DNA of 64,000 nt. It comes from Streptomyces ambofaciens ATCC 23877 (lineage in GTDB: Bacteria > Actinomycetota > Actinomycetes > Streptomycetales > Streptomycetaceae). Positions 1 to 22,314 of this stretch are shown piece after piece. Location: the NCBI RefSeq assembly GCF_001267885.1, contig NZ_CP012382.1, positions 496,001-560,000 of the forward strand, in the 5' to 3' direction. The position numbers and the translations under genes were made by a program. The notes beneath the pieces are model-generated. The model made no database searches. It had not been told where the DNA came from and saw only the letters and a list, made by a program, of their open reading frames with translations. Every line of letters starts with the position of its first letter. Position 1 is the stretch's first letter.

Positions 1-3000
1 CTGTCCGGCCGGGAAGGTGCCGCCGATCCAGGAGTCGCCGCCGACGGTCGGATGCTGGGCCGCACGCAGGCGTTCGGCTCGTCCGGCCCGCGCTCCGGCC
101 AGCAGCAGGGTCTCGTGCAGGGCGCGTACCGCCGGGCGGACGGCCGCGTTGCGTCTGAGCCAGTCCTCGATCGCGGCTCCGGACAGGTCACCGCGGCCCG
201 GGGGCGGCGGTGTCGGCACGCTGAGGGCGGGCAGGAGCGGCAGGTCCGCGCCGAGCACGTCGGCCAGGGCCGTTCTGGCCCGCGAGAGCCACGCGTCGCT
301 CGTGTCCGGGGTGACCTGCTGCGTGGCCAGGTCGCGCAGTTGCGCGGTGGCGGGGTGGTCGACGGCCTGCGGGCTGTCGGCGAAGGCGGCGAGCCGTGCC
401 CGCAGGGCGGTCGGGTCGGCCGACCGCCCGGCCGGTTCCTCGGGCAGATGGGCGGGCAGCAGTGGCTGGGCGGTGGACAGCAGCGTCCTGATCCGGGTCG
501 CCACGCCGTGCAGCGCGCTCCAGCCGGGCCCGGAGAAGACGACCGGTGTGTCCGCCGCCACGCCCTTGGCCCCGCGCACCGCTCGGTACAGTCCGGCCGG
601 TTCGACGGCCGCCGCGTCCAGGACCGCGCTCAGCGCGCTCAACCCCAGTCCGTCGGCGCCGAGTTCGAACTCCCCGTCGCCCAGCCGGCCGCCGAGCACC
701 CAGCCCGCCGCCGGACCGAGCAGATGGGCGACCCAGCTCTCCAGCGCGGGTTGCAGGTCGGCCACCGGATCGCTCGGCCAGCCGGTCGGTCCGGTGGGCC
801 CGGCGGGCAGCAACACGGCCGTACGGTGCGTCAGGGCGCGTGCCCGGTGCGGAGTGCGCAGCACCCGGAAGGTGTCGGGTACGTCTTCGCCGCGGCCGAG
901 GGTGTCGGCGGTCAGGCCCGCACGGATCGGGTTGCCGCCGACGAGTTGGTGGACGCTCTCGGCCAGCACCAGGTCGCCCACCGCGTCGAGCGCGTCGGCG
1001 AGGTCCTCCAGCAGCGGTGTCACCGCCGCCCGGTCCGGGTCCGCCCGGACCAGCGCTTCCCCGTCGATCACGCTGGGCCGGTCGCAGGCGGCCGTCCCGG
1101 CCCGCGCCAGGGCCATGCCGTCGACGACGTTGCGCGCGGAGATCGCCTCGGCGCTGCGTTCCCACAGGTCGGCGTCGGGTTCCGGCGCCTGGGTCTCGGG
1201 CACCACGGGGAGGGGGAACTGGCGGCGGAACCGCTCGACGAGGTGGTCCAGTTCGGCATCGTGCAAGGCCCGTTCGAAGCGGTAGCCGAGCAACGGCCCG
1301 AGGGTCTGGCCCTGGCGTACGCCGCCCAGCAGCCAGCGGGCGACCCGGGCGCGGCGGGAGGTGAGGTCGACGGCGTAGCTCTGCTCGTCGGGGTTGCCCA
1401 GGAAGCCGGAGCGCAGGACGGCCGCCGTGGCCGCGTGCTGGAGCGACGGGGCGTGGATGTAGCCGTCCTCGGCCGACACCTCGATGGGGGTGTCCACGTC
1501 GTCCAGGACGATGTCGAGCTGTTCCCTCTCCCGCGGTGGGCCCAGGTTCTCCACCCACCCGTACGCCCCGATCCGGGTGCCGTCGACGCCACCCGCCCTC
1601 AGGTCGTCCAGCCGGGCCGACGCCAGGGAGGTGATCCAGGCGTCCAGCCGGTGCTCATGGACGTCGACGACCTCCATGAGCAGCTCGGGAAGACGGGTCA
1701 CGGGCACGGTCGCGAGGGTCCGCAGCGCCTCCTCGAAGCGGGGCAGCGCGGTCGCGGCTCGCCGGGCGGCCTCGAGGCGTGCCGTGCGGTCCTGGTCGTT
1801 CGGACCTTCCAGCGCGTCGGCCACCAGTTGGTCCACCTCGCCGGTCACGGCCAGCGCCTGGCGCAGCGGATCGTCCGTGTTCTCGTCGAAGTCGCCGTGG
1901 AAGGTCGACCAGTTGGGCAGGAACAGGAGGGCGTCGAGGAGTCCGCGGCCGTCCGGTTCCGGGTCCGGTTCGGTGTCCGGTTCGGTGTCCGGCGCGATCT
2001 CGCCCGGTGGCTCTCCGCCGTCGGGCGGCTGCTCCCCGACCGGCGGCTGCTCCCCGGCCGGTGGTTCGCCCTCGGCGCCGGGCTCGGCCTCCGGGGAGGG
2101 CAGGTCGAAGAAGGTGCTGCGCCGGGGCGGCGTCTCCCGGCCCGTGGACAGCTCCACCGGCCACGCGAGGTCGTACGCCTGCGCGTCCAGCTCGCCCGCC
2201 AGGAAGGCCCGGACGGCGCCGAGGTAGTCCGCGGTCGCGGTGGCCCGGGCCGGGAAGGCCTCCGGGTCCGGGGCGATCCGGTCGACGAACGCCGGGACGC
2301 CGGTCTTCTCGTCCAGGCCCCAGCCGAAGAAGGTCGTCCCGTCGCCGCTCGTGGTCCAGCGCAGCGCCCCCTCGGGCGGCATCCCGGGCAGACCCGTGCG
2401 GGCCGGGGGCTCGTCGCGCTCGGTGCTCGGCACGGCGAACCGTGGCCCGTTCATCCGACGCATGGCCAGACCGGTCGCCACCGGCAGCCGCTGCAGCGCC
2501 TCCACCGCGACCTGGTCCGCCGGCTCGCCCGGCCGGATCCTGGGGACGGGGTCGATGGCGCTCTCGTCGTCCAGCACCCTGCGCCAGCACTCCCGCAGCC
2601 GCCGCAGCCACGGTGTGAGCAGCGCGCCCGCGTCGTCGACGCGCTCGGCGCGCCAGTCGTCGAGCGCGGTGACGGGCAGGACTCCGTACGGCTGGCGGCC
2701 GACCCGCAGCATGGGCAGCGGACCGCGGCTGCGGACCTGCCGGGCGAGATGGTCGCGGACGGCGCGCCAGGGTCCTTCGGGAGCGAAGGCGGTCCCCTCC
2801 TTGGTGCCCAGGTCGAGCGTGGTCAGCGCGGCCTCGGCGAAGCCCTTGCCGAGGGTGGGCCAGGTGAGCATGGTGAGGGCCGCCACGGCCGCGGAGTCGC
2901 CGTCGGCCGCGCCTGAACAGCCACGGAGGAAGCCCGCGTCGGGAAGACCGAGTGCCTCGGCCAGCGCGTCCGCGACGGGCCGCTCCCCCGCCTCCGGGTC

Positions 3001-3993
3001 GGGGTCGGGCCCCGGAAAGGCGGGTGCCGAGGACCAGCCGGAGCGAGTGCGGGGCGTGTTGTTGGTGGAGGTGCCCGGGGGCAGCAGACCGAGCCCGCCG
3101 CCGAAGCGGTGCCCGCGCAGCAGCTCGCCCAGCAGCGCCGCGCCGTCCGCCGGAGGGTCCTCACGCACACCGACGACGAGCAGTTGGTCCAGGTGCTCCG
3201 TGCTCTCGGGCGGGAAGACCAGCTCGATGCCCATGCCGGCCTTCACGGCTTCGAACCAGTCGGTCTCCCAGCCCTCCTCCTCGCCCCGCAACAGGCCCAC
3301 GGGCAGCGGGTCGGGCACCGGACGGCCGGGCTTGTCCACCACCACCTGGCCGTCGCGCAGGCCGAGGAAGCGCCACCGCTTCGGCATCCGCACCCCGCGA
3401 CCGCGGCGCTCCAGCGGTTCCTCGGGGCGCACCACGGGCGGCGGAGCCCCCGGGCGGCAGGCGTGGACCGTCCAGGACGCCCGGGCGGGCCGCAGCCCGG
3501 TCAGCACCTTCTGCCAGGCTTCCGGGCCCGGGTTCTGCCAGTAGGCGCTTCCCGCCTGCGCCTCGGCGGGGGTCAGGGCGGGCTCGAACCCGGAGAGCTG
3601 GATGTCGTCCGGGTACACCCGCACCCGCAGGGTCCGCGGCTCCCACCAGATGGTCTCCAGCCGTACCGGAAGCAGGGCGATCGGTGCGGTGTTGTCGTCG
3701 GGGAACAGCGCCTCCCCCTCGCTCAGGGCCAGCCTCAGCTCCTCCTCGGCCTCGGCGGCCAGGCCGTTCAGCTGCTGGGCACTGCTCTGCAGCTGTGGCA
3801 GTGCGGCCTCGGCCTGGGCGAGCAGAACGGCGGAGGGGATCGTGTCGGGAAGGTTGGGATCGGGGAGGCCCGCCGCGATGTGGGCCCGTAGGCGCAGGAC
3901 CACGGCCGACTGCTCGTCGGCGAGCGCCTGAGCGGCGTCCGCTTCGGTGTGTGCCCGGTCCGCCTGTGCGCGGGCTGCGAACGCGTCGGTCAT
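1..3993 (-). CDS. Very large protein of unknown function with TNNTP and QPYGVLP motifs (3' end outside window)
   Basis: An uninterrupted frame of 1331 codons begins at ATG 3993 and leaves the window at base 1, so the C-terminus is missing. The start has an AGGAG ribosome site about 7 bases upstream and lies 28 bases after the preceding gene. Residues 5-110 are Ala/Glu/Gln-rich and probably helical. PPGTSTNNTP lies near residues 306-315 and RVGRQPYGVLPV near 428-440. A Pro/Glu/Asp-rich linker at about 640-680 contains tandem GEQPP and DTEPD units. I see no signal peptide, membrane segment or enzymatic motif. I recall large uncharacterised bacterial proteins with these two motifs but cannot name a function. 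It is the last visible gene of the operon starting at 10595. A scaffold or surface role would be guesswork. The coding call is firm because only this frame gives balanced, non-Arg/Pro-saturated protein. Confidence 0.85.
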   Translation of the reverse strand, partial: MTDAFAARAQADRAHTEADAAQALADEQSAVVLRLRAHIAAGLPDPNLPDTIPSAVLLAQAEAALPQLQSSAQQLNGLAAEAEEELRLALSEGEALFPDDNTAPIALLPVRLETIWWEPRTLRVRVYPDDIQLSGFEPALTPAEAQAGSAYWQNPGPEAWQKVLTGLRPARASWTVHACRPGAPPPVVRPEEPLERRGRGVRMPKRWRFLGLRDGQVVVDKPGRPVPDPLPVGLLRGEEEGWETDWFEAVKAGMGIELVFPPESTEHLDQLLVVGVREDPPADGAALLGELLRGHRFGGGLGLLPPGTSTNNTPRTRSGWSSAPAFPGPDPDPEAGERPVADALAEALGLPDAGFLRGCSGAADGDSAAVAALTMLTWPTLGKGFAEAALTTLDLGTKEGTAFAPEGPWRAVRDHLARQVRSRGPLPMLRVGRQPYGVLPVTALDDWRAERVDDAGALLTPWLRRLRECWRRVLDDESAIDPVPRIRPGEPADQVAVEALQRLPVATGLAMRRMNGPRFAVPSTERDEPPARTGLPGMPPEGALRWTTSGDGTTFFGWGLDEKTGVPAFVDRIAPDPEAFPARATATADYLGAVRAFLAGELDAQAYDLAWPVELSTGRETPPRRSTFFDLPSPEAEPGAEGEPPAGEQPPVGEQPPDGGEPPGEIAPDTEPDTEPDPEPDGRGLLDALLFLPNWSTFHGDFDENTDDPLRQALAVTGEVDQLVADALEGPNDQDRTARLEAARRAATALPRFEEALRTLATVPVTRLPELLMEVVDVHEHRLDAWITSLASARLDDLRAGGVDGTRIGAYGWVENLGPPREREQLDIVLDDVDTPIEVSAEDGYIHAPSLQHAATAAVLRSGFLGNPDEQSYAVDLTSRRARVARWLLGGVRQGQTLGPLLGYRFERALHDAELDHLVERFRRQFPLPVVPETQAPEPDADLWERSAEAISARNVVDGMALARAGTAACDRPSVIDGEALVRADPDRAAVTPLLEDLADALDAVGDLVLAESVHQLVGGNPIRAGLTADTLGRGEDVPDTFRVLRTPHRARALTHRTAVLLPAGPTGPTGWPSDPVADLQPALESWVAHLLGPAAGWVLGGRLGDGEFELGADGLGLSALSAVLDAAAVEPAGLYRAVRGAKGVAADTPVVFSGPGWSALHGVATRIRTLLSTAQPLLPAHLPEEPAGRSADPTALRARLAAFADSPQAVDHPATAQLRDLATQQVTPDTSDAWLSRARTALADVLGADLPLLPALSVPTPPPPGRGDLSGAAIEDWLRRNAAVRPAVRALHETLLLAGARAGRAERLRAAQHPTVGGDSWIGGTFPAGQ

Positions 3994-4021
3994 GTCGGGG
4001 CTCCTGTCCTCGTGACGGAGG

Positions 4022-6553
4022 TCAGCCGCCCAGCAGCCTGGAGGCCCGGAAGGCCAGCTGGAACGGCTGCTGGAAGGCGATGCGCGCCATGTCGGCCGCG
4101 TCCGCGGCCCACACGGCGGAGCCGTCCGGGGCCGGGCTGGGCGCGGTCGGGGCGGGGTCCAGCACGACGCTTCCTCGGACGTCCACGCCAAGGCCTTCCC
4201 ACGTGAGGTCGGACCAGTTCTCCATGGCGAGGGGCGGGGGTCCGGTGTCGAAGCCGAACCGGGTGCCTTGCATCGGTTCACGGAACACGAAGAACCAGTC
4301 CTCGGTCCGGGCCCGTTCCTCGTCCAGGCCGGCGAACAGATACAGCACGGTGGACTCGTCCAACACCATCGGGGTGGCCGCCACCCCGTCGAACGCGGGC
4401 GGCAGCCTGCCGTCCACCCCCGCTACGGCGACCAGGGAGGTGCCGGGGAAGCGGCTCAACAGCGTGCCGCGCACGAGCAGCGCCAGGTCACCCTCGCGAC
4501 CGGTGTGCAGCCGGCTGCCCAACGGGGCGTCGGTCGGCCACAGCGCGATCTCCTCGACGTCCGCGTCGTCGCTGGGCCAGAACCTGGCGAACGGGGTGCC
4601 GCGCTGGTCGGTGGGGAACTCCCGCCAGAGCAGTTCCCGGTTGAACTCGTGGTTGAGTCCGACCAGCAGCGCGGCGATGAACTCGGGGTTGGTCTCCACC
4701 AGGGTCACCGAGTCGGGGGGCAGGGACTCGATGCCCGGGAGGGCCCATTCGGGCCAGCGGGAGAGCAGTTCCGTGGCGATCGGTACGGTGAACCTCGGGT
4801 GGGTCATGATCGGCCGCAGCGGCCGCGAGGCGTCCTCGGTGCGCTGCGCCCAGAAGTCGCCGGGGACACGGTCGGCCATGCGCAGGACCTGGAGGCGGGT
4901 GGGGCTCAGCCGGTCGCGCAGTTCCGTCGGCAGGCCGGGGCTGCCGGGCGCTTCATCGACGGTGGCTCCCATGGTCCGCAGGCTCTGCACCAGGACCGGT
5001 TCGGCAGGTGCGCTCTCCCCGTCGGTGCCGCGGTGGGCGCGGCGGGACAGGGCTCCGTTGGCACGGGTCAGCCGGCTGAAGGACGTACTGGCCGCTCCGG
5101 TCGGCACTTCGTCGGCCGAGGCCAGCATGGTGGCCAGCGTGGTGGCGTCGGCGTCCGGCCGGACGGCGGACACGGTCACGCGCTCACCGACCGGCGCCAG
5201 CAGGGTGACCAGGTCGGCCAGGCCGAGCGGGCCGAGGTGCTTCTCCTTGGCCCGCTCGGCCGCGGCAGCGGCCAGCTCCCCCGTGGCCAGCAACCGGTTC
5301 GCCTGCCGGATCTCGCCCGCCTGCTCCCAGGCCCGGGCCATCAGGAACTCCTGCTCCAGTTGCACGTAGCGGGCGCCGAGTGCGGCGGCCACCCTGCGGC
5401 GGACCTCCAGATTGAGTGTGGCCATCCAGCTGTCCGGTGCGGCGGGCACGGTCTGCTCACCGGTGTGGTGGCTGCCGTACAGCGGCGGTCCCACGGCGGC
5501 GGCCCGTCGGTCCTCGGCGGCGCCGTCCGGTTCCCCCGCCGGTTCCGGGGCCGGCTCGCGGAGGCCGGCCGGTGCGTTCAGACGTTGCGCGAGCAGGTTC
5601 CGGTAGCGCTCCTGGGCGGCGGGGTCGGTCCAGGTCTCGGGCACCGTCGTGCCCGGCGGCCGGAGGGCTCCGTCCATGGCGAGGGTGGCGGGCCCCAGGG
5701 AGGGCTCGGCCGGCCAGGGGCGGCCGACGTCGAGGACGCGGCTGCCGAGGCCGGCCTCGGCCGCGGGCCGGAACTCCAGTCGGCGTGCCAGCGCCTCGAA
5801 GGTGCCCTCCTTTGCCGTACGGAAGGTCCACCAGTGGTAGACGGGCAGGTCGACGGTACCCGTTCCGGCGACGGGCCAGGCGTCGTCCGTGGCCGCTCCG
5901 ACGGACGCCGCGCGCAGGCCCACGTCCCGCCCGGCGGCGGTGGCGGGCACGACCGCGGCGATCCAGCCGCGGTCGGGGGCGAGCCGGCGCGGGCACAGCA
6001 GCCGTGCGACGACGCCTGGGGAGTGGTCGCGCGCGCCCTGTTCGACGAGTCGCCTCGCGCTCTCCGCCTCGGTGACGGTGTCCGGCAGACGCGCTTCGAC
6101 GTGGGCCCAGGCCCACCGCTCGGTGAGCCGGGGCAGTGCGGCGACCGGAGCGGTGAGCACGGGCAGCGGGTGCGCGGGTCGCGGTGGGGCCGCCTCGTCG
6201 TCGGCCAGCACGATCAGCGTCATCCAGGGCTGCGGTGTGAGCGGGAGGTGCGCCGGTGCCATGGCCGGGGACAGCAGCCAGGGCAGGTCGGCGTGTGCCA
6301 GCTCGACCCCGGCCAGCAGGTTCTCGGGGGCGTCGGGCGTCCCGGCGCGCGGCTCCTCCCGCAGGACCGTGGCGCGGTCGAAGCCGAGCACGTCCCCCGG
6401 CCCGACCAACGCGAGCTCCGGCCCCTGCACCGACGGCTCCTCGTGGCGGCCCTCGATGTCACGACCGAACCGCACCGAGGTCCGCAGCGCCTGTCCGGTG
6501 GCCGAGGCGCCGGCGCCGATCCGCGCCCAGGAGAAGAACCATCGCGTGCTCAT
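4022..6553 (-). CDS. 843-residue conserved protein of unknown function
   Basis: ATG 6553 is preceded by GGGAG and overlaps the stop of a possible 20-codon ORF; the stop at 4022 lies 28 bases before the next gene. The most distinctive segment, at about residues 628-661, contains VGLNHEFNRELLW followed by EFPTDQRGTPF. I recall that motif from large uncharacterised proteins encoded beside DUF6603-type proteins, but no biochemical role is known to me. The N-terminus starts MSTRWFFSW with no cleavable signal. An Ala/Glu-rich, probably helical stretch lies near 370-440. No catalytic motif or membrane span is evident. Its position inside a compact operon of other giant proteins suggests one part of a multi-protein assembly; this is inference. 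Confidence 0.85.
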   Translation of the reverse strand: MSTRWFFSWARIGAGASATGQALRTSVRFGRDIEGRHEEPSVQGPELALVGPGDVLGFDRATVLREEPRAGTPDAPENLLAGVELAHADLPWLLSPAMAPAHLPLTPQPWMTLIVLADDEAAPPRPAHPLPVLTAPVAALPRLTERWAWAHVEARLPDTVTEAESARRLVEQGARDHSPGVVARLLCPRRLAPDRGWIAAVVPATAAGRDVGLRAASVGAATDDAWPVAGTGTVDLPVYHWWTFRTAKEGTFEALARRLEFRPAAEAGLGSRVLDVGRPWPAEPSLGPATLAMDGALRPPGTTVPETWTDPAAQERYRNLLAQRLNAPAGLREPAPEPAGEPDGAAEDRRAAAVGPPLYGSHHTGEQTVPAAPDSWMATLNLEVRRRVAAALGARYVQLEQEFLMARAWEQAGEIRQANRLLATGELAAAAAERAKEKHLGPLGLADLVTLLAPVGERVTVSAVRPDADATTLATMLASADEVPTGAASTSFSRLTRANGALSRRAHRGTDGESAPAEPVLVQSLRTMGATVDEAPGSPGLPTELRDRLSPTRLQVLRMADRVPGDFWAQRTEDASRPLRPIMTHPRFTVPIATELLSRWPEWALPGIESLPPDSVTLVETNPEFIAALLVGLNHEFNRELLWREFPTDQRGTPFARFWPSDDADVEEIALWPTDAPLGSRLHTGREGDLALLVRGTLLSRFPGTSLVAVAGVDGRLPPAFDGVAATPMVLDESTVLYLFAGLDEERARTEDWFFVFREPMQGTRFGFDTGPPPLAMENWSDLTWEGLGVDVRGSVVLDPAPTAPSPAPDGSAVWAADAADMARIAFQQPFQLAFRASRLLGG

Positions 6554-6612
6554 GCGTCGCTCCCGACGGGAGAGGGGGCCGGTGGTGTGCGTGCGCCGTC
6601 CCGGGTGCTCAT
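6550..6612 (-). CDS. Possible 20-codon coupled micro-ORF
   Basis: ATG 6612 overlaps the TGA of the 968-residue gene (ATGA), and its own TGA at 6550-6552 overlaps the ATG of the 843-residue gene (6553). The predicted peptide is MSTRDGARTPPAPSPVGSDA. The two perfect ATGA-type junctions allow translational coupling across the gap. The peptide is proline-rich and featureless, so it may simply be a translational bridge or chance. It lacks its own ribosome site. Confidence 0.25.
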   Translation of the reverse strand: MSTRDGARTPPAPSPVGSDA

Positions 6613-9515
6613 CGGTGTTCCCAGGTCTCGACGAACCGCGCGGGTCGCGCGGCTCCGGTGCGGGCCGCCTCCCAGGGGTCCTCGGTGGCGTCGACCGGGC
6701 TGAAGTCGTCGAGCAGCGGCTCCAGGGTGTCGGCGGCGACCATGCTCAGCGTCGCCGGACGCACCGTGACGGCCACTTCGGGGGTGCGCCACCTCTCCAG
6801 CCGCTCGGAGGCGCTGACGGCCAGGGTGGCTTCGCACGGGAAGAGGCCGGGCCAGAGCGAGGACTCCCGATCTCGCGACGGTTCGTACTTGGTCTCGTAA
6901 CCGTCGTCGACGCGGTGCCCCTCACCGGTGCGGCTTCCGTCGGTGCGTGCCCGCAGTCCGCCGGCGTGGCCGACGAAGGCGGGCTCGGTGAGCTGCTGGT
7001 CCTCGGTGAGGTCGAAGAACTCGCCGGGCACGAAGCGCTCGGGCAGAGAACGGGCCCCGTCCGCGGCCTGGGGCTCGCCGAAGGTCACTTCCTTGATCGT
7101 CCAGGTCTGCCCCGGCACCGGCCGCCGCTCGAAGCGGGAGATCGGCACGCCCAGCGGCACGACCTTCTGGGTGACGCGGAGTGTGGCGTCGGGGTGCACC
7201 AGGCTCCCCTGGTTCAGTTTCTCGGTCGCCGCGGGGGTGAAGACCAGGGCGGTGCGTTCGGCGGCCGGCCGCTCCGCCGCCCAGGCCGTCGTCCGCCGCA
7301 GTGCTTCGGCCAGCACCGGAAGCGGTTCGCGTCCGCGGCGGTCCGAGACGGGCGGGGGCGATCCCCAGCGGATGTCGAAGTCCAGCTCGACGTCCCAGAA
7401 CAGCACCGAGATGCTGCCGGTGCCGTAGGCGTGCCAGGGGGCCGGCCCCTCCAGGGTGAAGTCCAGTGCGACACCTGCCAGTCGGCGTCCGAACGCACGC
7501 ACCGCGACACCGGCCCGCACCTGCACGGCGAAGGCGAACACCGGGTCGAAGACGAACAGGGCGTCGAGTCCGAGCCAGCCCGTCACACCGCAGCCCGCGA
7601 TCGTCGCGTCCAGTTGCACCTGGCCACCGAACATCACCGCGTTGGAGGTGACGGCGAAGTAGGCCTCCATGCGCAGTCCGAAACCGTTGCCGGGGGCCAG
7701 GTCGATCTGGAGCCTGCTCAGCGGGGGCACCCCGGCGGGGCGGGTGTAGCGGGGGTGGAAGCCGCCGGCGGACAGGACGAACTCCGGCTGCCGCCCGCCG
7801 CGTACCAGGAGGTACATCTCGCCGCGCACGGCGAGGCCGACGATCCACGAGCCGGTCAGCGACACCAGCAGCTCCACCATGGGGACGGCCGGTTCGATGC
7901 GTCCGAGCACGCCGGCCTGGAGACGGACCATGGGCAGGGCCGGATCGGGCAGGCCGACCAGCAGACGTCCGAGCAGGATCGCGCGCGGTGGCGCGGGCAG
8001 TTCGAGGATGACCGCTCCGGACAGCGACACCATCCGGGCGCCCCAGGTGAGGCGGATCATCGGGCCGACCAGGATCCTCCCGGGGGCGACGGGGAACGCC
8101 GCGCCGAGGGAGCCGATGATCTCCTTGGCCCGCTCCACGGCGCGGTCGGGGAACAGCACGTGGTCGGCGTTGCCGTCGCACACCAGCTGTTGCAGGGCGG
8201 TGACTTCGACGCGCCGGTTGATGCCGACGAGTCCGCCGACCGCCTCCAGCGCGAATCCCAGACCGAGCTGGATGCCCGGCGGCGGGAACTGGGCGGCGAG
8301 CAGTACCAGGAAGCTCGTGGGGGCGTCCCCGTCCGGTGGCCGGAACAGGGCCATGGCCTGGAGGCGCAGTACGCCGAGGTCGATGTCGATCAATCCGCCG
8401 TAGCTGTGGTCCTCGTTGCGGCGCACCATGCCGCCGCCCGACACCGGCGGCACCTTGAGTTCCGTTCCGATGGCGTCCGGGAACCGGGGGCGGGGGTCGC
8501 TCCCGTCGAGGCCCGGCCGAGTCCCCGAGGACAGCGCCACCGGCAGCTCGATGCCGGCGCCGTCCATGAAGACCTTCAGAGGCAGCCCCGGCAGCCCCGC
8601 GGTCGCCGACACGGACACGCCCACGCGGGTGCCGTCCCCGTCCGAGATCAGCTCCAGCGCGGCGTCCCGGGTGGAGACGTGCGGCGCGTTCAACCGCAGG
8701 GGGAGGGGGACGCGCAGGGTGCCCGTGCCGGTGAACCGCAGTCCGGCCGGCCGGTCCGCCCGGAGGGTGACGTCGACCGGTCGGGCGCCGCCGCCCGCCG
8801 GGCCCGCCCCACCGCCCCCGACCAGCTGGGCCAGCGCCTTCGGCAGGACGGCGGCGGTGAGGCCGCGCAGCTCGATCTCGACGGCGGCGGCGGTGTCGGG
8901 TGCGGCGGTCACGGCCAGGGCGATGCCCTCGACGCCGATTCCCGGGCCGTCGGTCATGCCGGCGGCCAGCCTTCCGGTGCGCTGCACCTTGATCGTCGCG
9001 GTGCCCCGTGTTGCCGCCGGTTGCAGCCCGGGGCCGAAGGCCACGTCCCAGCCCTTCGGGTCCGCGGCGTCCGTCTCGATGTCCGCTGTCGCGCTCCACG
9101 GCTGCGGCGCCGTGGCGGCCAGGGTCAGCAGGGCTCCCGGGGTGACGACCAGGTCGAACACGGGCCCCTCCGGCGTCACCCCCAGGACGGCCCGTCCGGC
9201 CGCGGGTCCGGACGGGTCGGTCAGCACCAGGGCCACCCCGAGCGGGGCGCCCGGCGCCCGACGCCATCCGTGCAGGCGCAGCGGCACCGATGAGTCGGCG
9301 GCCAGGTCCCCGATCATCTCCCGTACGAGTTCCACCAGTGAGTCGCCCGCGGGGAGCCGGTCGTGCACGGCGAGCAGCCGGCCGGCGAGCACGGTGCCCG
9401 CGGCCGAGGGATCCTCACCGAGCTCGGGCAGTTGCCGGACCAGGCCGTCCACCGCGCCCTGCACCAGGGTGCGCAGCTGACGGGCTACGTCGTCGAGGAG
9501 CTGATGCGGGTCCAT
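6609..9515 (-). CDS. 968-residue DUF6603-like beta-rich protein
   Basis: ATG 9515 lies six bases after the WD40 gene stop, with a GAGG site upstream. From about residue 270 onward the protein is a long run of short amphipathic beta-type stretches with alternating hydrophobic residues and frequent Gly/Pro turns. GWLGLDALFVFDP near residue 645 and LEGPAPWHAYGTGS near 690 resemble the DUF6603 domain family as I remember it; that family has no established function. The N-terminal 60 residues are helical, and there is no signal peptide. The repetitive beta pattern could form an extended groove or barrel able to hold lipid or bind a surface. That is speculation from the residue pattern only. It is the second gene of the minus-strand operon. 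Confidence 0.85.
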   Translation of the reverse strand: MDPHQLLDDVARQLRTLVQGAVDGLVRQLPELGEDPSAAGTVLAGRLLAVHDRLPAGDSLVELVREMIGDLAADSSVPLRLHGWRRAPGAPLGVALVLTDPSGPAAGRAVLGVTPEGPVFDLVVTPGALLTLAATAPQPWSATADIETDAADPKGWDVAFGPGLQPAATRGTATIKVQRTGRLAAGMTDGPGIGVEGIALAVTAAPDTAAAVEIELRGLTAAVLPKALAQLVGGGGAGPAGGGARPVDVTLRADRPAGLRFTGTGTLRVPLPLRLNAPHVSTRDAALELISDGDGTRVGVSVSATAGLPGLPLKVFMDGAGIELPVALSSGTRPGLDGSDPRPRFPDAIGTELKVPPVSGGGMVRRNEDHSYGGLIDIDLGVLRLQAMALFRPPDGDAPTSFLVLLAAQFPPPGIQLGLGFALEAVGGLVGINRRVEVTALQQLVCDGNADHVLFPDRAVERAKEIIGSLGAAFPVAPGRILVGPMIRLTWGARMVSLSGAVILELPAPPRAILLGRLLVGLPDPALPMVRLQAGVLGRIEPAVPMVELLVSLTGSWIVGLAVRGEMYLLVRGGRQPEFVLSAGGFHPRYTRPAGVPPLSRLQIDLAPGNGFGLRMEAYFAVTSNAVMFGGQVQLDATIAGCGVTGWLGLDALFVFDPVFAFAVQVRAGVAVRAFGRRLAGVALDFTLEGPAPWHAYGTGSISVLFWDVELDFDIRWGSPPPVSDRRGREPLPVLAEALRRTTAWAAERPAAERTALVFTPAATEKLNQGSLVHPDATLRVTQKVVPLGVPISRFERRPVPGQTWTIKEVTFGEPQAADGARSLPERFVPGEFFDLTEDQQLTEPAFVGHAGGLRARTDGSRTGEGHRVDDGYETKYEPSRDRESSLWPGLFPCEATLAVSASERLERWRTPEVAVTVRPATLSMVAADTLEPLLDDFSPVDATEDPWEAARTGAARPARFVETWEHR

Positions 9516-9521
9516 GCCGCC

Positions 9522-10595
9522 TCATCCTTGCGTGGAGTTGGACTCACCGTTGTCGAGCACCAGCGCGCGGGCGAAGCAACCGACGCCGAGCCAGCGGCCG
9601 TCGGGGCTGAACTCCAGGGTGAGCACCTCGTCGGTGGGCGCGGCGTAGAGTTCCTGGCCCGTGAGGCCGAACAGGCGGACGACGTTGTCGATGGAGGCGC
9701 TGGCCGCCAGCTTTCCGTTGGGGCTGAACGCCACGTGGGTGACGGCGCCCAGGCCCGGATCGGGCGCCCCGGGCTGCAGCTTGGGCGCGCGGCACTTCTC
9801 GACCCCGGTCGCGGCGTCCAGGACCCGGGCGAAGCCGTCGGCACCGCCGACCACCGTCCAGCGGCCCTTCGGGTCATAGGCGAGGCAGTTCGGGGCGGTG
9901 ATCTGCTCGTCGGTCTCCTCCGGAAGGGGCCACACCTGCCCGCCGCCGACCGACTCGAACATCCGGGTGGTGTCGTCGGCGGCGCAGCAGAGCACCGTGT
10001 CCGCGTCGGGGCTGAAGGCGACCGCGTGGACGGCGTCGTCCGGGGTCAGCTTCCCGAGGACCTCGCCGGTGGCCAGTTCCACCACTCGTGCGTCTCCGGT
10101 GAACTGGTGGTTCCCGCCGTGGCGGTGGTCGACGGCCAGCGCGACCCGGGTGCCGTCCCCGCTCACGTCCACGTCGGCGATCAGCGGCGGGTCGACGGTG
10201 ACGCGCCGGGTGATCGCGCCGGTGGCAGGGTCCAGTACGGCGACGAGGACGTCGGTGGTGGCGATGATCTGTCCGTCGCCCGCGAACCGCACGGCGTTCA
10301 CGGAGTTCCCCGGATCGAGCGGGCCCTGCCAGATGGCCGCGCCGTCCGCTCCGTCACGCAACGACACCTGCTCGAAGTCGGCGACGACGAAGGTGCCGCC
10401 GTCGGGTCCGAAGGCGATGCCGGTCACGGACCCGCCGACGGGCACGTCCAGGTCCTCGCCGATGAGGACCGGCCGTACCCGCAGGGTGTTGTCGCTGCCG
10501 CCACTGGCGAAGCGGGTGCTGTCGGGGCTGAAGGCGATGGCCTGGACCGAGCCCTGGTGTTCGACGGAGCGGGCCACCGTTCCCGGCTCACTCAT
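9522..10595 (-). CDS. WD40 repeat protein
   Basis: The start ATG 10595 is fixed by GGAAGGAG six bases upstream; the frame extends further upstream to 10718 but without a ribosome site and with Arg-rich residues typical of non-coding sequence. The 357-residue product carries repeated WD40-type blades: AFSPDSTRFASGGSDNTL, AFSPDADTVLCC, AFSPNGKLAASASIDN and EFSPDGRWLGVG. About seven such units would close one beta-propeller. WD40 propellers are protein-interaction platforms. No signal peptide, kinase or protease domain is fused. It is the first gene of the operon continuing into the three giant proteins, so a scaffold or recruitment role there is plausible. Confidence 0.88.
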   Translation of the reverse strand: MSEPGTVARSVEHQGSVQAIAFSPDSTRFASGGSDNTLRVRPVLIGEDLDVPVGGSVTGIAFGPDGGTFVVADFEQVSLRDGADGAAIWQGPLDPGNSVNAVRFAGDGQIIATTDVLVAVLDPATGAITRRVTVDPPLIADVDVSGDGTRVALAVDHRHGGNHQFTGDARVVELATGEVLGKLTPDDAVHAVAFSPDADTVLCCAADDTTRMFESVGGGQVWPLPEETDEQITAPNCLAYDPKGRWTVVGGADGFARVLDAATGVEKCRAPKLQPGAPDPGLGAVTHVAFSPNGKLAASASIDNVVRLFGLTGQELYAAPTDEVLTLEFSPDGRWLGVGCFARALVLDNGESNSTQG

Positions 10596-11144
10596 GGCAG
10601 GCTCCTTCCGAGGTCGACCGCGACTTCGGTGTCCTGAAGGACTTCGGTGTCCTGAAGCATCGGAAGGGGCTGCTCCGGCGCAACGGCGCCGGGCACTCGC
10701 GCTGCCCCGAAACCTCAAGGACGGGAGCGCGTCATCCGCGGGGTCCCGCTCGCGAGGGTTTCCGGATGCGTGTGATTGCTGCGACTCACCAACCTAGTCG
10801 AAGGCATCGACGCCCGCCACGCGGAGCCGGCGCGCAGAAGCACCGTCCGCACCCGAGGCAGGGGCTCCGGCCGACGAGCCCGCGGAAGGCCGGGAGCACG
10901 TACCTGACGCAACGTCATACGTGGTCGGTGGGCGGGGAGAAGACCCGAGGACGCGACGGCGGTCAGGTGCTCCGGCCCCGCGTGGCACGGTCGCCGCGGA
11001 GGTGCGACCATGGAGGGGTGCCGACCCGTGGGCCGCGCAGTCATGTCAGCCGCCCTCGACCGGTCCCCCACTCCCGGCGTCCGCTGGTGCTCGCCGACCC
11101 GGGAAGCCGCTCCAGGCATCGTGCCTCGGTGAAGGAGTTCCGGC
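10596..11144. other. Divergent intergenic region without a convincing gene
   Basis: The region separates the WD40-led operon (minus) from the phospholipase D-like gene (plus) and must hold promoters for both. I see a direct repeat at 10622-10657 and a slightly less GC-rich patch around 10765-10800. I find no confident -10/-35 pair and no reading frame with normal amino-acid composition. Confidence 0.5.
10622..10657. repeat. Two tandem copies of an 18-bp unit upstream of the WD40 operon
   Basis: GACTTCGGTGTCCTGAAG occurs twice, head to tail and identical, at 10622-10639 and 10640-10657. It lies 27-62 bases upstream of the WD40 start codon, in the expected 5' untranslated or promoter region. 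A tandem operator is possible; a replication-slippage duplication is equally possible. Confidence 0.7.
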
Positions 11145-13091
11145 ATGCTCACCTCCGCGCTCTTCGCCGGCGATCCACTGCTCGAAGCCGTCGCTCAGGA
11201 CCAGGACCGGATCTCACGCTCCCGGCACCGGACCGACCCGGCCGTGCGGAAGGTGCAGACCGCCCTGCTCGACCGGGACCCGCACTGCCTCCCCGTGTTC
11301 GGCGCGGACGGCGACTACGGGGACGAGACCGCCGGTGCGGTGGCCCGGTTCAAGATCGAGGTGCTCGGCGTCCCCCCGCCCGAGGTGATCGACGACGTCG
11401 GCCCCTTGACCGTCCTGAAGCTCGACGAGATGCGGGCGCGTGCCGAACAACCACCCGCCCCGTCCGTCGCCCCCGAGGACTGGCTGCTGACCGACCACGA
11501 CATGGGCCCTTTCCGCGCCCCCGCCTTCACCCTGGACAACGTGGTCCTGTACTTCGTCGACGCCGAGGGGTACTACGACACGCTGGCCTCGCGGCTGGAC
11601 GGCCTGCGGAGCGGGGACCAGGTGCTGTTCGCCGGCTGGCGGTTCTCGCCCGAGCAGGTGCTGCGCCCGGCGGTCGCGGGCTCCGCGGGCATCCTCGACC
11701 GGCTCCGCGGACTCCGGGCCCAGGGCGTCGTGGTCCGCGCGCTCCTGTACGGTTCGCACTTCTCCACGCTGCCGGTGCGCAGGCCCAGGGTCCCGACCCT
11801 GCCGTCCAAGGACAACTTCGACTTCCGCACCGGGCTGGTCGACGCCGGTGCGCAGGCGGTCCTCGACGCCCGGGTGGCGGACTTCGGCTCCCACCACCAG
11901 AAGTGTGCGGTGGTGCAAGGCGCCGCCGAGGGCCCGGCCGCGTTCGTCGGCGGGATCGACGTCTGTCTGGACCGGTGGGACAACGCCGCTCACGTCGACC
12001 CTCCCGTACGGCAGCGGGAACCCGACTTCCTGGGGCAGAAGATCTCGCTGCCCGGCTGGCACGACGTGCAGTGCGCGGTGTTCGGCCCCGCCGTCGGTCA
12101 GATCTGGCAGGCTCTGGTGCAGCGCTGGAACGACCCCACCCGGCCCAGCCGGGTCGACGGCGCACCCGTGCCGATCTCCCCGTCGGAGGCGCCCGGCCCG
12201 TCACCGATGTCCGGCACGCAGGCCGTGCAGGTGCTGCGCACCCTCACCTGCAAGGGGATCTACTCCTTCCTGCCGGGCGGCGAGTTCACCGTCACGGCCG
12301 CCTACCGCAAGGCCGTGCGCCGGGCGCGGCACTACATCTACGTCGAGGACCAGTACCTGTGGCCCTCGCCCCTGGTCGACGACCTGCGGGACGCCGCCGC
12401 CCGGGGCGTCCAGGTCGTCCTGGTCACCGCACGCGACTTCGACGCACCGGGGCTGGCCGACACCCACAAGGCGCTGCGGGCCGAGGCCCTCCGGCGCATC
12501 GCCTCGGTGGCGCCCGCGAACGTCCACTGCTTCCACCTGGAGCAGGCGGCGACCGCGCTGCAGGTCTACGTCCACGCGAAGCTGATGATCGTGGACGACC
12601 AGTACGTCGCCGCGGGTAGCGCCAACCTCAACTTCCGTTCCCACACCACGGATTCGGAGCTGCATCTCGGCGTCTTCGACACCGACCTCACCGACGGCAC
12701 CATGGGCGGCGCCCCGCACCGGGTCGGCGTGTCCGTCCGCGCCCTGCGGACGCAGATCTGGGGCGAACACCTCAACGAGGACCCGTCGCTGCACGAGGAC
12801 GCGCTGGCGGGCCTGGGCCGGATGCCCCCGGCCGGCGGCAAGACCGGTCACCTGGTCGGCTTTCCCGTGCCCTCGCAGGTCCCGGCCGTGGACTGGCGCG
12901 AGACGCTGCGGGAACTGCTGCGCTCGATCCAGCACATGGAGCACTGGCAGTTCCTGGCACCGGTGGTGCTCGGCCCCCTCGCGCCCGCCGTCCCGCTGGT
13001 CCCGGGCCTGGACCTCGGGACCGTCGCGGACCTGGTCCCCGACCCCGAAGGGTTCCTGCGCGGACTGCTCAATCCCCGTACCGTGTGCTGA
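11145..13091 (+). CDS. Phospholipase D-family protein with N-terminal peptidoglycan-binding-like domain
   Basis: AAGGAG lies about eight bases before ATG 11145. The 648-residue protein has two HKD catalytic motifs: HHQKCAVV near residue 248, followed by FVGGIDVC, and HAKLMIVDD near 477, followed by GSANLNFRS. Both are complete, so phosphatidyl-transfer or hydrolase activity on phospholipid, or another phosphodiester, is expected. Residues 24-80 (PAVRKVQTALL to GDYGDETAGAVARFK) resemble a peptidoglycan-binding type 1 fold. There is no signal peptide, so this is not a classical secreted Streptomyces phospholipase D. It diverges from the giant-protein operon across about 550 bases. The pairing suggests but does not prove that it is the effector or enzymatic part of that system. 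Confidence 0.85.
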   Translation: MLTSALFAGDPLLEAVAQDQDRISRSRHRTDPAVRKVQTALLDRDPHCLPVFGADGDYGDETAGAVARFKIEVLGVPPPEVIDDVGPLTVLKLDEMRARAEQPPAPSVAPEDWLLTDHDMGPFRAPAFTLDNVVLYFVDAEGYYDTLASRLDGLRSGDQVLFAGWRFSPEQVLRPAVAGSAGILDRLRGLRAQGVVVRALLYGSHFSTLPVRRPRVPTLPSKDNFDFRTGLVDAGAQAVLDARVADFGSHHQKCAVVQGAAEGPAAFVGGIDVCLDRWDNAAHVDPPVRQREPDFLGQKISLPGWHDVQCAVFGPAVGQIWQALVQRWNDPTRPSRVDGAPVPISPSEAPGPSPMSGTQAVQVLRTLTCKGIYSFLPGGEFTVTAAYRKAVRRARHYIYVEDQYLWPSPLVDDLRDAAARGVQVVLVTARDFDAPGLADTHKALRAEALRRIASVAPANVHCFHLEQAATALQVYVHAKLMIVDDQYVAAGSANLNFRSHTTDSELHLGVFDTDLTDGTMGGAPHRVGVSVRALRTQIWGEHLNEDPSLHEDALAGLGRMPPAGGKTGHLVGFPVPSQVPAVDWRETLRELLRSIQHMEHWQFLAPVVLGPLAPAVPLVPGLDLGTVADLVPDPEGFLRGLLNPRTVC

Positions 13092-13633: not shown

Positions 13634-15832
13634 TCAGACGACGGGCTGCTGGGCGCTACTGGGGCGGTCCAGGCCCATCGACTGGCGGCCGAGGAACGGG
13701 GCCTTCCAGGCACCCGTGCCCCGGTAGAGGTAGTTGCCCGTCGGGCTGAAGGCGGCGAGGTCGCCGCGGCCGTCGCGGTCGGCGTCACCGACCGCGACGA
13801 GGTGGGTGTAGGGACCCCAGCCGGCACCGATCCGCGTGCGGGGCGCCAACGTGCCGTCGCCCTTGCCCAGGTAGAGCCAGAGGACCCCGTCCTTGTCCCG
13901 GGCGATCAGGTCTCCGGCGGCAGCGCCGCCGATGTTCCCGACGGCTGTCAGGTCGTTGTAGACGCCCCAGCCGCCGCCGACCTTCTTGCGAGCGGAGAAG
14001 GGAGCGGTGGCGTTGCCGGTGCCCGGGTAGAGCCACAGGACACCGGACCGGTCGGTCGCCAGGAGGTCGTTCCGGCCGTCCCCGGTGAGGTCGGAGCCGC
14101 CCGCCACCTTGTCGTAGACCTGCCAGCCGCCGCCGACCCTGACGCGGGTGGCGAAGCCACCACGGCCGTCGCCCTGGTAGAGCCACAGGACTCCGGCCGT
14201 GTCGCGGGCGACCATGTCGCCGACCGAGGATCCGCCGACATCGCCGGTGGCCTCGATGCGGTCGTACACGTTCCAGCCGCCACCGACGAGGGCCTTGGCC
14301 TCTCCCGCGCCGAGCTGCCCGGCAGCGCCGGTGCCCGCGTCGAACGAGGTGTCGCTGCGCCAGAGCTTGCCCGCCGAGTCCCGAGTGAGGACGTCGGGGG
14401 TGCCGTTGTCGTTGAAGTCGTGCGGCTGCCCCTTGCGGCTGACCGTGAAGGTGCCGTCGGCGGTGGCGGCCGGGCCGATGCCGTTGAGGGGCTCGGCCAC
14501 GGCCTCCCAGGTGTAGGCGCCGTTGGGGGCGGCCTCGGACCCGCCCGAGAGGGCACCGGTCCAGTCCAGCGTGACGGACGGGGTGGCGGGGTGCTTCGCG
14601 GTGGCGACGACCGTCTTCCCGGTACGGACGTGGCGGAGCGTGATCCGCACGTCCACGTTGCTCCGGGAGAAGTCCCAGCGCAGGGACGCCGACCCACCGT
14701 TCTGGTCGAGGTCGACGAGCGCGGGAACGGTGTGGCCGGTGATCTCGACCTGGGTGGGTGCTCCGGCGTTCGCCACCCGGGTGACGACGGGGGCGCCTGC
14801 GTCCCCGGCGGTGATCTTGAACAGACCCTCGCCGCCCGCGACGGTGCCCCCGCGCACGTACAGGCCGTCGGGGGCGGTGGCGGACGAGGTCAGGTGGTCG
14901 AGCAGCTTCACCGAGACGCCGGTGGCGGGGTTGTACGCGGTGACGGCGTGCAGGGGGTTCGCCGCGCCGGAGGAGATGCCGTCGGCCTCTCCGTACACGA
15001 CCCAGCCGCCGACCAGACCCACCTGGAGGTCACTCGCGTACGCGGGGGTGACCGGGATCTCCTCGACGGTGTCGGACGCGCGGTCCAGGAGGAACACCGC
15101 CGGGGTGCCGGTGCCGTCACCCTCGGTCCAGACGACGTGAGTCCCGGAGACGGCGAAGTCGCCCCCGGTGGAACCGGCGGTCCGGTCGTGCGTCTCGTGG
15201 ACCGCGCCGGTGGCGAGATCGATCAGTGCCCACTTCTTCAGGGCGCCGTCGGTGAAGGTCAGCAGGGCGTCCTCGGGGGTGCCGGGGGTGATCTCGACGT
15301 CCCTCGCACCGGTCGGCAGCCCGGTGACGGTCCTCACGCCCTCGTCCGCGGTGTGCTTGCGCAGCTTGAGGGTCCCGTCGGTCTCGACGGTCGTGAAGAT
15401 CGCGTTCGCCGCCGAGCCCGCGTACCGCGGTTCACCGGCCAGGTCCCCGACGAAGACGTCGAACGACGACAGGGTCTTGAGGTTCCGCTGCTGGACACCC
15501 CAGCGGCCCGCGAAGACGAGGTAGTCCGCCGTGCGCGTCGAGCGGAGGTAGGTCCGGTTCGAGTAGCCCGACCCGGCGGGGTCCCCGTAGCGGGTCCAGC
15601 GTTTGTCGAGGGACCCTTCGGCCTGGGTCACGAAGCCGGTCAGACCGGCGTCGACCAGCTTCGCCTTCTTCAGGAAGGGCATGAGAACGGCGTCGGAGGC
15701 CGCCGTGTCCGCCGTCACCGCCGCCGGGGCGGCCGAGGCCGGCACGGACAGGGCGCCCACGGCGGGCGTCACGGCGAGGACGGCGGTGACGGCGACTACC
15801 AGCCGACGTCGGGTCGATCGGGCCAGGGGCAC
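13634..15832 (-). CDS. Secreted FG-GAP/VCBS repeat protein
   Basis: The start is GTG 15832 with AAGGAA about seven bases upstream. The first 34 residues form a Sec signal peptide: an Arg-rich n-region, a Val/Ala core and a cleavage site near SAAPA. The N-terminal 420 residues look like a degenerate beta-propeller (ARDVEITPGTPEDALLTF and similar). An Ig-like or FlgD-like segment follows (DVRITLRHVRTGKTVV). The C-terminal 270 residues hold at least four FG-GAP-type repeats such as DLTGDGRNDLLATD, each followed by GVLWLY and GGGW. These repeats usually form calcium-binding propellers involved in adhesion or carbohydrate binding. The protein is extracellular; its ligand is unknown. It is transcribed alone. 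Confidence 0.85.
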   Translation of the reverse strand: MPLARSTRRRLVVAVTAVLAVTPAVGALSVPASAAPAAVTADTAASDAVLMPFLKKAKLVDAGLTGFVTQAEGSLDKRWTRYGDPAGSGYSNRTYLRSTRTADYLVFAGRWGVQQRNLKTLSSFDVFVGDLAGEPRYAGSAANAIFTTVETDGTLKLRKHTADEGVRTVTGLPTGARDVEITPGTPEDALLTFTDGALKKWALIDLATGAVHETHDRTAGSTGGDFAVSGTHVVWTEGDGTGTPAVFLLDRASDTVEEIPVTPAYASDLQVGLVGGWVVYGEADGISSGAANPLHAVTAYNPATGVSVKLLDHLTSSATAPDGLYVRGGTVAGGEGLFKITAGDAGAPVVTRVANAGAPTQVEITGHTVPALVDLDQNGGSASLRWDFSRSNVDVRITLRHVRTGKTVVATAKHPATPSVTLDWTGALSGGSEAAPNGAYTWEAVAEPLNGIGPAATADGTFTVSRKGQPHDFNDNGTPDVLTRDSAGKLWRSDTSFDAGTGAAGQLGAGEAKALVGGGWNVYDRIEATGDVGGSSVGDMVARDTAGVLWLYQGDGRGGFATRVRVGGGWQVYDKVAGGSDLTGDGRNDLLATDRSGVLWLYPGTGNATAPFSARKKVGGGWGVYNDLTAVGNIGGAAAGDLIARDKDGVLWLYLGKGDGTLAPRTRIGAGWGPYTHLVAVGDADRDGRGDLAAFSPTGNYLYRGTGAWKAPFLGRQSMGLDRPSSAQQPVV

Positions 15833-15996: not shown

Positions 15997-16560
15997 CTAC
16001 AGGTCGAACTCGACGTGTTCGACGTCGGTGAAGCGCACCTCCTCCAGAGCGCCGGCGCGTCGGCCGCCGTCCTGGAAGTAGGTGTCCCTGAGCGCCTCGG
16101 CGGCGATCTGCTGCAGCCGCCGGTCACTCTCGCCGGCCTGCTGGGCGTCGAAGAGCCGGGCCGCGTACTGCGGCGGCAGCGCGACGGTCAGGTGCCGGAC
16201 CCGGTTCTCGTCGGTCGAGCCGACCGGTGCGGTGTAGCCGATCCGGGCCCGGGTGTCGATGACGATGCCGCCCGTGGTCGCCGCCCTCTCCCTGGCCTTC
16301 GCCCGGATCTGCGGCTGCCACCGCGCTCTGACCTCGCGCTCCAGGCGGGCCGCAAGGTCGGGTCGGGGCTTTTTGATCTGGTTCTTCACGTACCGCTCGA
16401 CGGTGCGCTGGGAGACGCGCAGCGTCCGGGCGACCGCCCCGGTGCCCTTGAGCTGCCTGACCAGGTAGCGCATCTGCGCGCCCGCGCTCTTGGGCGCCGG
16501 GCGGGTGAACGCCTTCTGTACCGCGCTCTCCAGGCCCTCCCCGAACAGGTTCATCGGCAT
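15997..16560 (-). CDS. tpg: Telomere terminal protein
   Basis: The 187-residue product matches the Streptomyces terminal protein Tpg in length and features. These include the N-terminal MNLFGEGLESAVQKAFTR, a helix-turn-helix at about residues 40-65 (AVARTLRVSQRTVERYV), and the middle part with GIVIDTRARIGYTAPVGSTD. Tpg is covalently attached to the 5' ends of linear chromosomes and plasmids and primes end-patching after replication. It starts four bases after the tap stop, so the two genes are translationally linked. Assignment is by recognition of the family and the gene pair. Confidence 0.9.
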   Translation of the reverse strand: MPMNLFGEGLESAVQKAFTRPAPKSAGAQMRYLVRQLKGTGAVARTLRVSQRTVERYVKNQIKKPRPDLAARLEREVRARWQPQIRAKARERAATTGGIVIDTRARIGYTAPVGSTDENRVRHLTVALPPQYAARLFDAQQAGESDRRLQQIAAEALRDTYFQDGGRRAGALEEVRFTDVEHVEFDL

Positions 16561-16564
16561 CGTC

Positions 16565-20363: not shown

Positions 20364-20407
20364 GTCTTCTCAGGTTTCCTCGTATCAGGTGGTGCGACGG
20401 CCGGGGG

Positions 20408-21745: not shown

Positions 21746-22314
21746 GGCAGTTCCCCTTTGAACTGTGATGTGGGTGGCCGGGCCCGAACGCCGCAGGGGG
21801 TACGGCACGACTCGGGAGAGGGGCCGGAGCGGGATGCGCGGACGCGGATCTGCGGCCGTCCGAGGAGCCGGGGCGGGGTCCGGCGAGGGGACCCCGCACG
21901 GGAGGCGGCGTACCGGGACGGGCGCGGGTGGGACGGTCGGGCGGTTCGGCTTCCTGCCGCCGGCCGCTCTGGGGCCGGACGGCCGCCCCGCGCCTCACCT
22001 CACGCGTGACCGTGGTGTCCGGCGGCGACGGCTGCGGGGCGCGGATCCTCGCGGCCGTCGGCGGTGGTGCGCGGGCGGGGTGGTTCCGAGGGCGGCTGTC
22101 ACCGCCGGCTCGTCCTGCCGGACGAGATCGAGCATGGACGAATCTCCTAGACCTGGGAGGAGAGCGACAGCGGGTGCCGCCTACGGTCCGAGCCACGCGG
22201 CCGGTGGCTGAGTTGACCGTAGAGTTGCTTCTGATTCACGTCCATGTCGAATTTTGTTGCTTGCCATACCTTTCCTGGATGACCGTTTCGTGACGGCGAC
22301 GTGTCAGGGCGGGG
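21746..22314. other. Control region of the gntP-gudD operon; no gene seen
   Basis: The 569 bases upstream of the transporter contain no frame with protein-like composition. The distal part (22205-22290) is noticeably AT-richer and carries the 13-bp motif shared with the lysR-kdgD spacer, so the promoter is probably there and the leader would be long. Nothing else is recognised. Confidence 0.5.
22232..22244 (-). promoter_or_regulatory. Shared 13-bp motif, copy upstream of gntP-gudD
   Basis: Read on the minus strand this is TGGACGTGAATCA, identical to the copy at 23229-23241. Both lie in control regions of the same sugar-acid locus. This makes it a candidate binding site for the LysR regulator encoded between them. 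LysR sites often contain a T-N11-A core, and here the motif could be one arm. Confidence 0.45.

Follow-up and report, generated by a model that had tools for sequence, protein, structure and literature searches.

Do the large genes that lie packed on the minus strand of a Streptomyces chromosome, facing a gene for a phospholipase D-family protein (PLD), belong to one system, and if so what might that system do? The stretch analysed, here called the window, is 64,000 nucleotides long (bases 496,001-560,000 of the main contig of the 8.39 Mb Streptomyces ambofaciens genome). An earlier, sequence-only reading had taken four minus-strand genes at its left end, for a WD40 protein, a DUF6603 protein, an 843-residue protein (P843) and a giant protein, to be one operon opposite the PLD gene, an arrangement that was confirmed (Table 1). 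The spacing it gave, 0-28 bases or overlaps, held for the WD40-DUF6603 and P843-giant gaps (6 and 28 bases); the DUF6603-P843 gap is larger, at 55 bases, and no overlap need be assumed. The giant gene runs out of the window, its stop codon lying 2,006 bases left of window base 1, and spans two modules, giant-N and giant-C, which are separate genes in Nocardia and in many other relatives. DUF6603, P843, giant-N and giant-C form a conserved four-module core that recurs in distantly related bacteria and haloarchaea, and the tie to envelope or lipid that had been proposed is borne out, as enzymes of that kind are associated with the cores.

The core was delimited by a six-frame profile search for the four modules in 57 loci, 54 of them distinct (duplicates recognised through a 400-base middle piece only), drawn from GTDB genomes (21), plasmid/phage records (11 and 1 fetched) and genome samples. 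Most loci were found via P843 or via PF20248, the DUF6603 family, so those two were given beforehand, giant-N and giant-C not. All four modules are present in 50 of the 57 loci (47 of the 54 distinct ones), a few of these truncated where a contig ends (L021, L027), in constant order and strand, the exceptions being L023 and G446b with their inverted giant-C/giant-N pair. Seven loci are incomplete: L025, L061, L070 and G206 reach the end of a contig or record or are frame-broken, and G204, G246 and G261, all found via PF20248, show no recognisable set by the census profiles. The conserved neighbourhood on which the proposal of one system had been staked is thus present. The core occurs in Actinomycetota, Alpha- and Betaproteobacteria, Gemmatimonadota and haloarchaea, its breadth beyond Actinomycetota coming from genome contigs, plasmids and protein search, as the genome samples hold Actinomycetota only; hosts of all four modules include Streptomyces, Sphaerisporangium, Nocardia, a Nocardioidaceae bin, Mesorhizobium, Rhizobium, Paraburkholderia, Gemmatirosa and three haloarchaea. 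In a fourth haloarchaeon, Halobellus, the copy looks broken, its plasmid core (L061:16241-32682) being split by frame breaks in DUF6603 and giant-N. Homologues at E<=0.001 number at least 365 for P843, at least 152 for the giant and at least 337 for DUF6603, and P843 matches lie on 13 of 72,556 plasmids and in one phage-collection record.

The modules are also inherited together. Their divergence is proportional over 31 loci (Pearson 0.985-0.994, Spearman 0.76-0.92; three duplicate pairs included), and among 296 Actinomycetota genomes PF20248 is found in nine and P843 in seven, all seven among the nine (hypergeometric 1e-12); the per-genome searches scored the best two candidates (one search of these 296 genomes) or the best three and five (searches of 246 Streptomyces genomes). 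The opposing view, that independent genes have become adjacent by chance, draws on nothing beyond their missing annotation and is refuted by synteny across domains of life: chance grouping is excluded because the same gene order recurs across most of the 54 distinct loci, and the proportional divergence is also against it, so that we give it practically no credence. The window P843 is 64% identical to that of Mesorhizobium and 41-47% identical to those of Nocardia; that the Mesorhizobium protein is the closer, with a WD40 protein retained beside it, also at 64%, points to transfer between phyla. Taken with the distribution, this sequence evidence points to a core that is transferred whole among haloarchaea and bacteria of distant kinship.

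Two observations concern individual records. One genome carries two cores of different subtype (L102/L103; G446:C1:9508001-9543000), in the second of which the giant pair is inverted and the giant-N frame is longer by about 1,150 residues at its N-terminus. The phage-collection record L070 (MT835531.1), an UNVERIFIED 'Bacteriophage sp.' entry, has P843, giant-N and giant-C among bacterial-looking genes and is probably a mislabelled bacterial contig.

Whether all five genes co-occur in distant bacteria had been put as a question. The neighbourhood is indeed conserved, and the unit within it is the four-module core, with WD40 and PLD outside. The WD40 protein is a clear member of its family (Pfam WD40, E 1.1e-31, 108 bits, in four stretches, so that several repeats are present). 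Its orthologues, at 63-74% identity, lie beside 16 distinct cores as well as that of the window, and are present at 13 of the 14 genome-contig loci whose P843 is at least 61% identical, the fourteenth contig having no upstream sequence. No WD40 gene was found at this threshold beside divergent cores, although on one plasmid a gene annotated as WD40 follows giant-C. The WD40 gene is therefore part of one core lineage and not of the conserved unit.

What the core proteins are is less readily said, as three of the modules (P843, giant-N and giant-C) lie outside every curated family searched. P843 had no match in Pfam (E<=1), NCBIfam, PHROGs or PADLOC; residues 1-1331 of the giant had none in Pfam (E<=1), the precomputed Pfam list of the full giant (P0121) is empty, and the full giant matched nothing in NCBIfam, PHROGs or PADLOC. 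The DUF6603 protein matches PF20248 at E 5.5e-96 (322.6 bits; gathering score 27 bits), a family that Pfam calls one of unknown function. Sequence and profile searches of the PDB with P843, the giant and DUF6603 gave no E below 0.01, and a confident model of P843 had no Foldseek match in the PDB at E<=1e-3. No publication was found on DUF6603/PF20248 or on the system as a whole, subscription papers not being covered, and the earlier proposal of a multi-component system without known description is in this respect upheld.

The AlphaFold2 model of DUF6603 (pLDDT 80.8, pTM 0.56) predicts strands from residue ~80 to ~720 in a long antiparallel beta meander, many of them with alternating hydrophobicity and so apparently amphipathic. 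This shape is the basis for one alternative, in which lipids are bound or moved by DUF6603 as an open hydrophobic groove or barrel, and PLD, Tle1, PhoD and galactocerebrosidase enzymes act on those lipids; the lipid-active neighbours described below, and the best Foldseek matches, ApoB100, LptD, ushers and porins, would be in keeping with it. All PDB matches, however, have E above 1e-3, with TM normalised by query length at most 0.19 in the best 50 rows and rmsd ~7-13 A (VIA), and in model terms these likenesses are those of a generic antiparallel sheet. Proteases and wall hydrolases are also among the neighbours, and we judge a lipid-handling assembly distinctly improbable.

Several other leads on the core proteins were followed and set aside. 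A viral or phage origin of DUF6603 was suggested by a best BFVD match of E 2e-5, but at TM 0.10 and rmsd 38 this was treated as meaningless; P843 was not found in viral contigs. Shared ancestry of the four modules is not supported by hhalign between their profiles (probabilities <=0.3%). P843 has a single insertion site, at profile position 538, where inserts of at least 60 residues occur in 42 of 161 sequences, and giant-N has insertion hot spots at 631 and 1183; cargo inserted within core proteins was rejected, since the inserts examined by eye are mainly lineage extensions rather than recognisable swapped domains. An apparent DUF6603-P843 fusion (P0112) was discarded, its junction reading like a frame error, and P0059 may be a joining artefact. 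No functional meaning was attached to the stray names that some family members bear (FUSC family, helicase, molybdopterin factor) or to annotations of VCBS, BGTF-surface and lamin-tail domains.

The PLD had been put forward as the enzyme of the system, and this needs modification. It is an accessory, present in 3 of the 15 core-bearing Streptomyces genomes, and elsewhere the cores have proteases, phosphatases, peptidoglycan hydrolases or no recognised enzyme beside them. The association where it exists is close: among 246 Streptomyces genomes a PLD orthologue (E<=1e-60) occurs in three, all among the 15 with P843 and less than 10 kb from the core (P 2e-4). The enzyme has a domain match above cut-off, with PF00614 at E 5.6e-7 over its second HKD motif; of the two HxKx4D motifs the second is complete and the first has Q for D, as in all five orthologues examined (6/6). 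Plasmid NZ_CP109170 carries, near a core whose P843 is 35% identical to that of the window, a DUF2235 gene and a PLD that is 85% identical to ours, which indicates that the enzyme module pairs with different cores.

The best lead to mechanism is at the N-terminus of the PLD, where a module of about 100 residues (the tag) recurs, judging by sequence likeness, on different lytic enzymes beside the same chassis. The peptidoglycan-binding character ascribed to it is weak in the window protein, which has no Pfam match there and resembles a PHROG endolysin over residues 26-69 (E 8e-4); its relative in L199, in turn, scores PG_binding_1 above cut-off. The tag is 58% identical to residues 831-930 of a subtilase on a Nocardia plasmid, the annotated start of which overlaps the end of the gene in giant-C position. 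It is also N-terminal on a lytic transglycosylase (PG_binding_1 + SLT) upstream of the G288 core, and matches weakly (E 6e-4) a 278-residue protein directly upstream of DUF6603 in Nocardia L029. A tblastn search (E<=1e-3) of the 72,556 plasmids with the window tag found two records, both among the 13 with P843, where the tag sits on a PLD and on a subtilase (P 3e-8); the divergent G288 tag had no plasmid match at E<=1e-8, and no tag was found in viral contigs. In the Actinomycetota sample the tag is found in 2 of 296 genomes at E<=1e-9 (best 16 candidates per genome), a specificity that is in part circular, A6 having taken rows from both of these genomes; no such circularity affects the search of plasmids, made with the window sequence alone. 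The tag presumably also resembles the PG_binding modules of proteins linked to extracellular contractile injection systems.

Other lytic enzymes are likewise concentrated at the cores. PF09994 (annotated DUF2235, now T6SS_Tle1-like_cat) has seven matches in 16 genomes, three of them beside a core against ~0.04 expected, and PG_binding_1 has at least 12 matches within 15 kb of cores against 1.2 expected (about tenfold), these having been picked by eye, with several in one gene and one at G261, which has PF20248 and a weak P843 match only. Further neighbours are M23 with PG_binding, amidase, hemopexin, subtilase, GH59, endonuclease/exonuclease/phosphatase, PhoD, S8 and M64 peptidases, weak trypsin-like matches and RHS repeats. 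Same-strand 5' genes were scanned at 19 divergent-type loci (14 further ones, and the G261 and G246 neighbours, lie outside this count): 5' gene 1 or 2 shows a hydrolase domain above curated cut-off in seven and one below it (E<=0.01) in four more. The window genome has its PF09994 gene, for a Tle1-like phospholipase, at ~59 kb from the core; it lies there in a second accessory patch (L196:10275-18533; G000:C1:432275-440533) together with an M23 peptidase and a PG_binding protein, both looking by eye like core neighbours elsewhere.

Such a collection might instead be a kit for self-lysis and release, in which phospholipases and peptidoglycan hydrolases that lack signals break open the producer in the manner of endolysins and free a cytoplasmic core particle. 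The amidase, M23 and SLT enzymes found close to cores or in the second patch, whose N-termini look signal-less by eye, and the match of the PLD N-terminus to PHROG endolysins would suit this, but the protease, PhoD and GH59 neighbours fit poorly and many loci are without a recognised enzyme of this sort. We consider a self-lysis kit unlikely.

A simple hydropathy scan of the five proteins of the window locus shows neither signal-like N-termini nor clear transmembrane segments, their highest 19-residue means being 1.27-1.71. With upstream starts allowed, 4 of 16 core-adjacent enzymes reach a crude signal-peptide score, against 41 of 59 PhoD/S8 controls from elsewhere in the same genomes (Fisher 0.003); counted from the annotated starts the figure is 2 of 16. 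This scarcity of signals is in keeping with the complex preferred below and counts against wall-anchored display, in which the giants would sit on the wall or surface of the producer itself and keep enzymes there that release nutrients or remodel the matrix, with no injection. Display gains from the PG_binding enrichment, from the LysM and Phage_tail_X domains on giant-N of some Nocardia (at least three Nocardia proteins plus two others, one of those two checked) and from the BGTF-surface and lamin-tail annotations, discounted above, in giants of two haloarchaea. On balance we regard it as rather unlikely, if the likeliest of the alternatives.

The account we prefer, tentatively and at somewhat less than even chances, is a non-contractile complex, spread by horizontal transfer, onto which exchangeable lytic enzymes are loaded and from which they are deployed. 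The four core modules would be subunits of one large chassis assembled in the cytoplasm, which would carry interchangeable enzymes that degrade envelopes or proteins: in the window locus a PLD, elsewhere a Tle1-like phospholipase, a lytic transglycosylase, M23 or amidase enzymes, a subtilase or a PhoD-like phosphatase. The tag may serve these signal-less enzymes as a loading tag or as a wall-docking module, and the LysM repeats fused to Nocardia giant-N may provide anchoring or target binding. The particle, once released, would deploy its enzymes on other cells. We infer the physical complex, the loading, the export or release and the target cells from the conserved unit and its associations. 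More specifically, the core might be a cargo-deploying nanomachine of bacteria and archaea, non-contractile and without sequence kinship to any known secretion or injection system, with phospholipase, protease and wall-hydrolase cargo made interchangeable by a PG_binding-derived tag, a proposal we hold to be doubtful.

Several points weigh against a deploying complex. The PLD is missing from 12 of the 15 core-bearing Streptomyces genomes; 8 of the 19 divergent-type loci have no enzyme or a weak lead, and these counts have no random-gene baseline. The tag may merely bind the wall, PG_binding modules being common as wall binders. The signal score is a crude heuristic whose controls had more upstream sequence, which somewhat favoured them, and the 16 enzymes compared include two PLD orthologues and one from G204, a core unrecognised by the census. 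Lastly, no export route was recognised at the core loci, and no fold in the DUF6603 and P843 models indicates delivery.

Table 1. Features of the window locus (positions in the window unless noted)
Feature	Position	Strand	Remarks
Giant protein, 1,999 aa	1..3993 (residues 1-1331)	-	ATG 3993; full gene L008:2994-8993
giant-N, core module 3		-	giant residues ~1-1460
giant-C, core module 4	left of window	-	giant residues ~1461-1999
P843, 843 aa, core module 2	4022..6553	-	without curated family or recognised fold
DUF6603 protein, 968 aa, core module 1	6609..9515	-	PF20248
WD40 beta-propeller protein, 357 aa	9522..10595	-	ATG 10595, stop 9522; operon gene 1 in this lineage
Intergenic region, 549 bases	10596..11144	.	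between divergent operon and PLD starts
PLD, phospholipase D-family protein, 648 aa	11145..13091	+	accessory enzyme; PLDc_2 E 8e-17
Tag, N-terminal PG_binding-like module of PLD	11145..11480	+	~100 residues
First HKD-like motif, HQKCAVVQ	11895..11918	+	His, Lys kept; Asp position is Q
Second HKD motif, HAKLMIVD	12573..12596	+	complete

The region between the divergent starts presumably holds the promoters of both the operon and the PLD. Beyond the PLD the window contains an adjoining protein with FG-GAP repeats (13634-15832), whose N-terminus resembles a signal peptide by eye, and then a 187-residue protein and a 750-residue HTH protein (15997-18817), in which Pfam shows only HTH. We take this pair to recall the tpg/tap telomere-protein pairs of Streptomyces linear replicons; if it is such a pair, the region may derive from an integrated linear plasmid. 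An ordinary sugar-acid catabolism set follows (19029-24536: enolase-superfamily enzyme, GntP permease, DHDPS-family aldolase and, by eye, a LysR-like regulator), and an IS4/5-family transposase fragment (DUF4096) lies toward the right end of the window (61622-62062).

A cassette of ~10-20 kb whose order is kept from Streptomyces to haloarchaea and rhizobia, which is also plasmid-borne and which has three protein modules without a curated family, marks a wide gap in what is catalogued of microbial machines. If the core does deploy enzymes, delivery or display systems would gain a new class, and the candidate loading tag makes the idea open to direct test.

No known kind of system that was tested or considered fits the core, though several resemble it in part. 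In PADLOC-DB, DUF6603, P843 and the giant match no anti-phage defence family at E<=1, and the PLD has only weak matches to the PLD domains of DrmC and Mko. Contractile injection systems (CIS) of Streptomyces, extracellular or cytoplasmic, are effector-deploying structures, reportedly cytoplasmic in S. coelicolor. The core might then be effector or spike equipment for the CIS of its genome, as the Phage_tail_X/LysM domains on giant-N could suggest, and also the sheath gene (PF17482) that 12 of the 20 P843-matching genomes, the window genome included, possess. This is very unlikely, because a sheath match is absent from 8 of the 20 and the 18 matches that were found all lie away from the cores; in the window genome the sheath is ~3.2 Mb away, and sheath genes are common in the genus (5 of 9 Streptomyces genomes of the phylum sample, that of the window included).

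The PLD shares with the phospholipase D superfamily its complete second motif, and the nearest solved chain is that of a PLD1 construct (E 1.3e-24); it differs in the altered first motif and in its core-associated N-terminal module. Phage endolysins are, like some core neighbours, wall hydrolases with PG_binding modules; the core neighbours differ in lying beside operons for giant proteins. The type VI secretion system (T6SS) has a PLD-type phospholipase effector, Tle5. As with the Tle1-like (PF09994) effectors of the T6SS, phospholipases and wall hydrolases stand here around a large conserved gene set, PF09994 itself beside three cores, whereas no sheath, the only apparatus gene searched for, was matched at the core loci and the core hosts are mostly Gram-positive bacteria or archaea.

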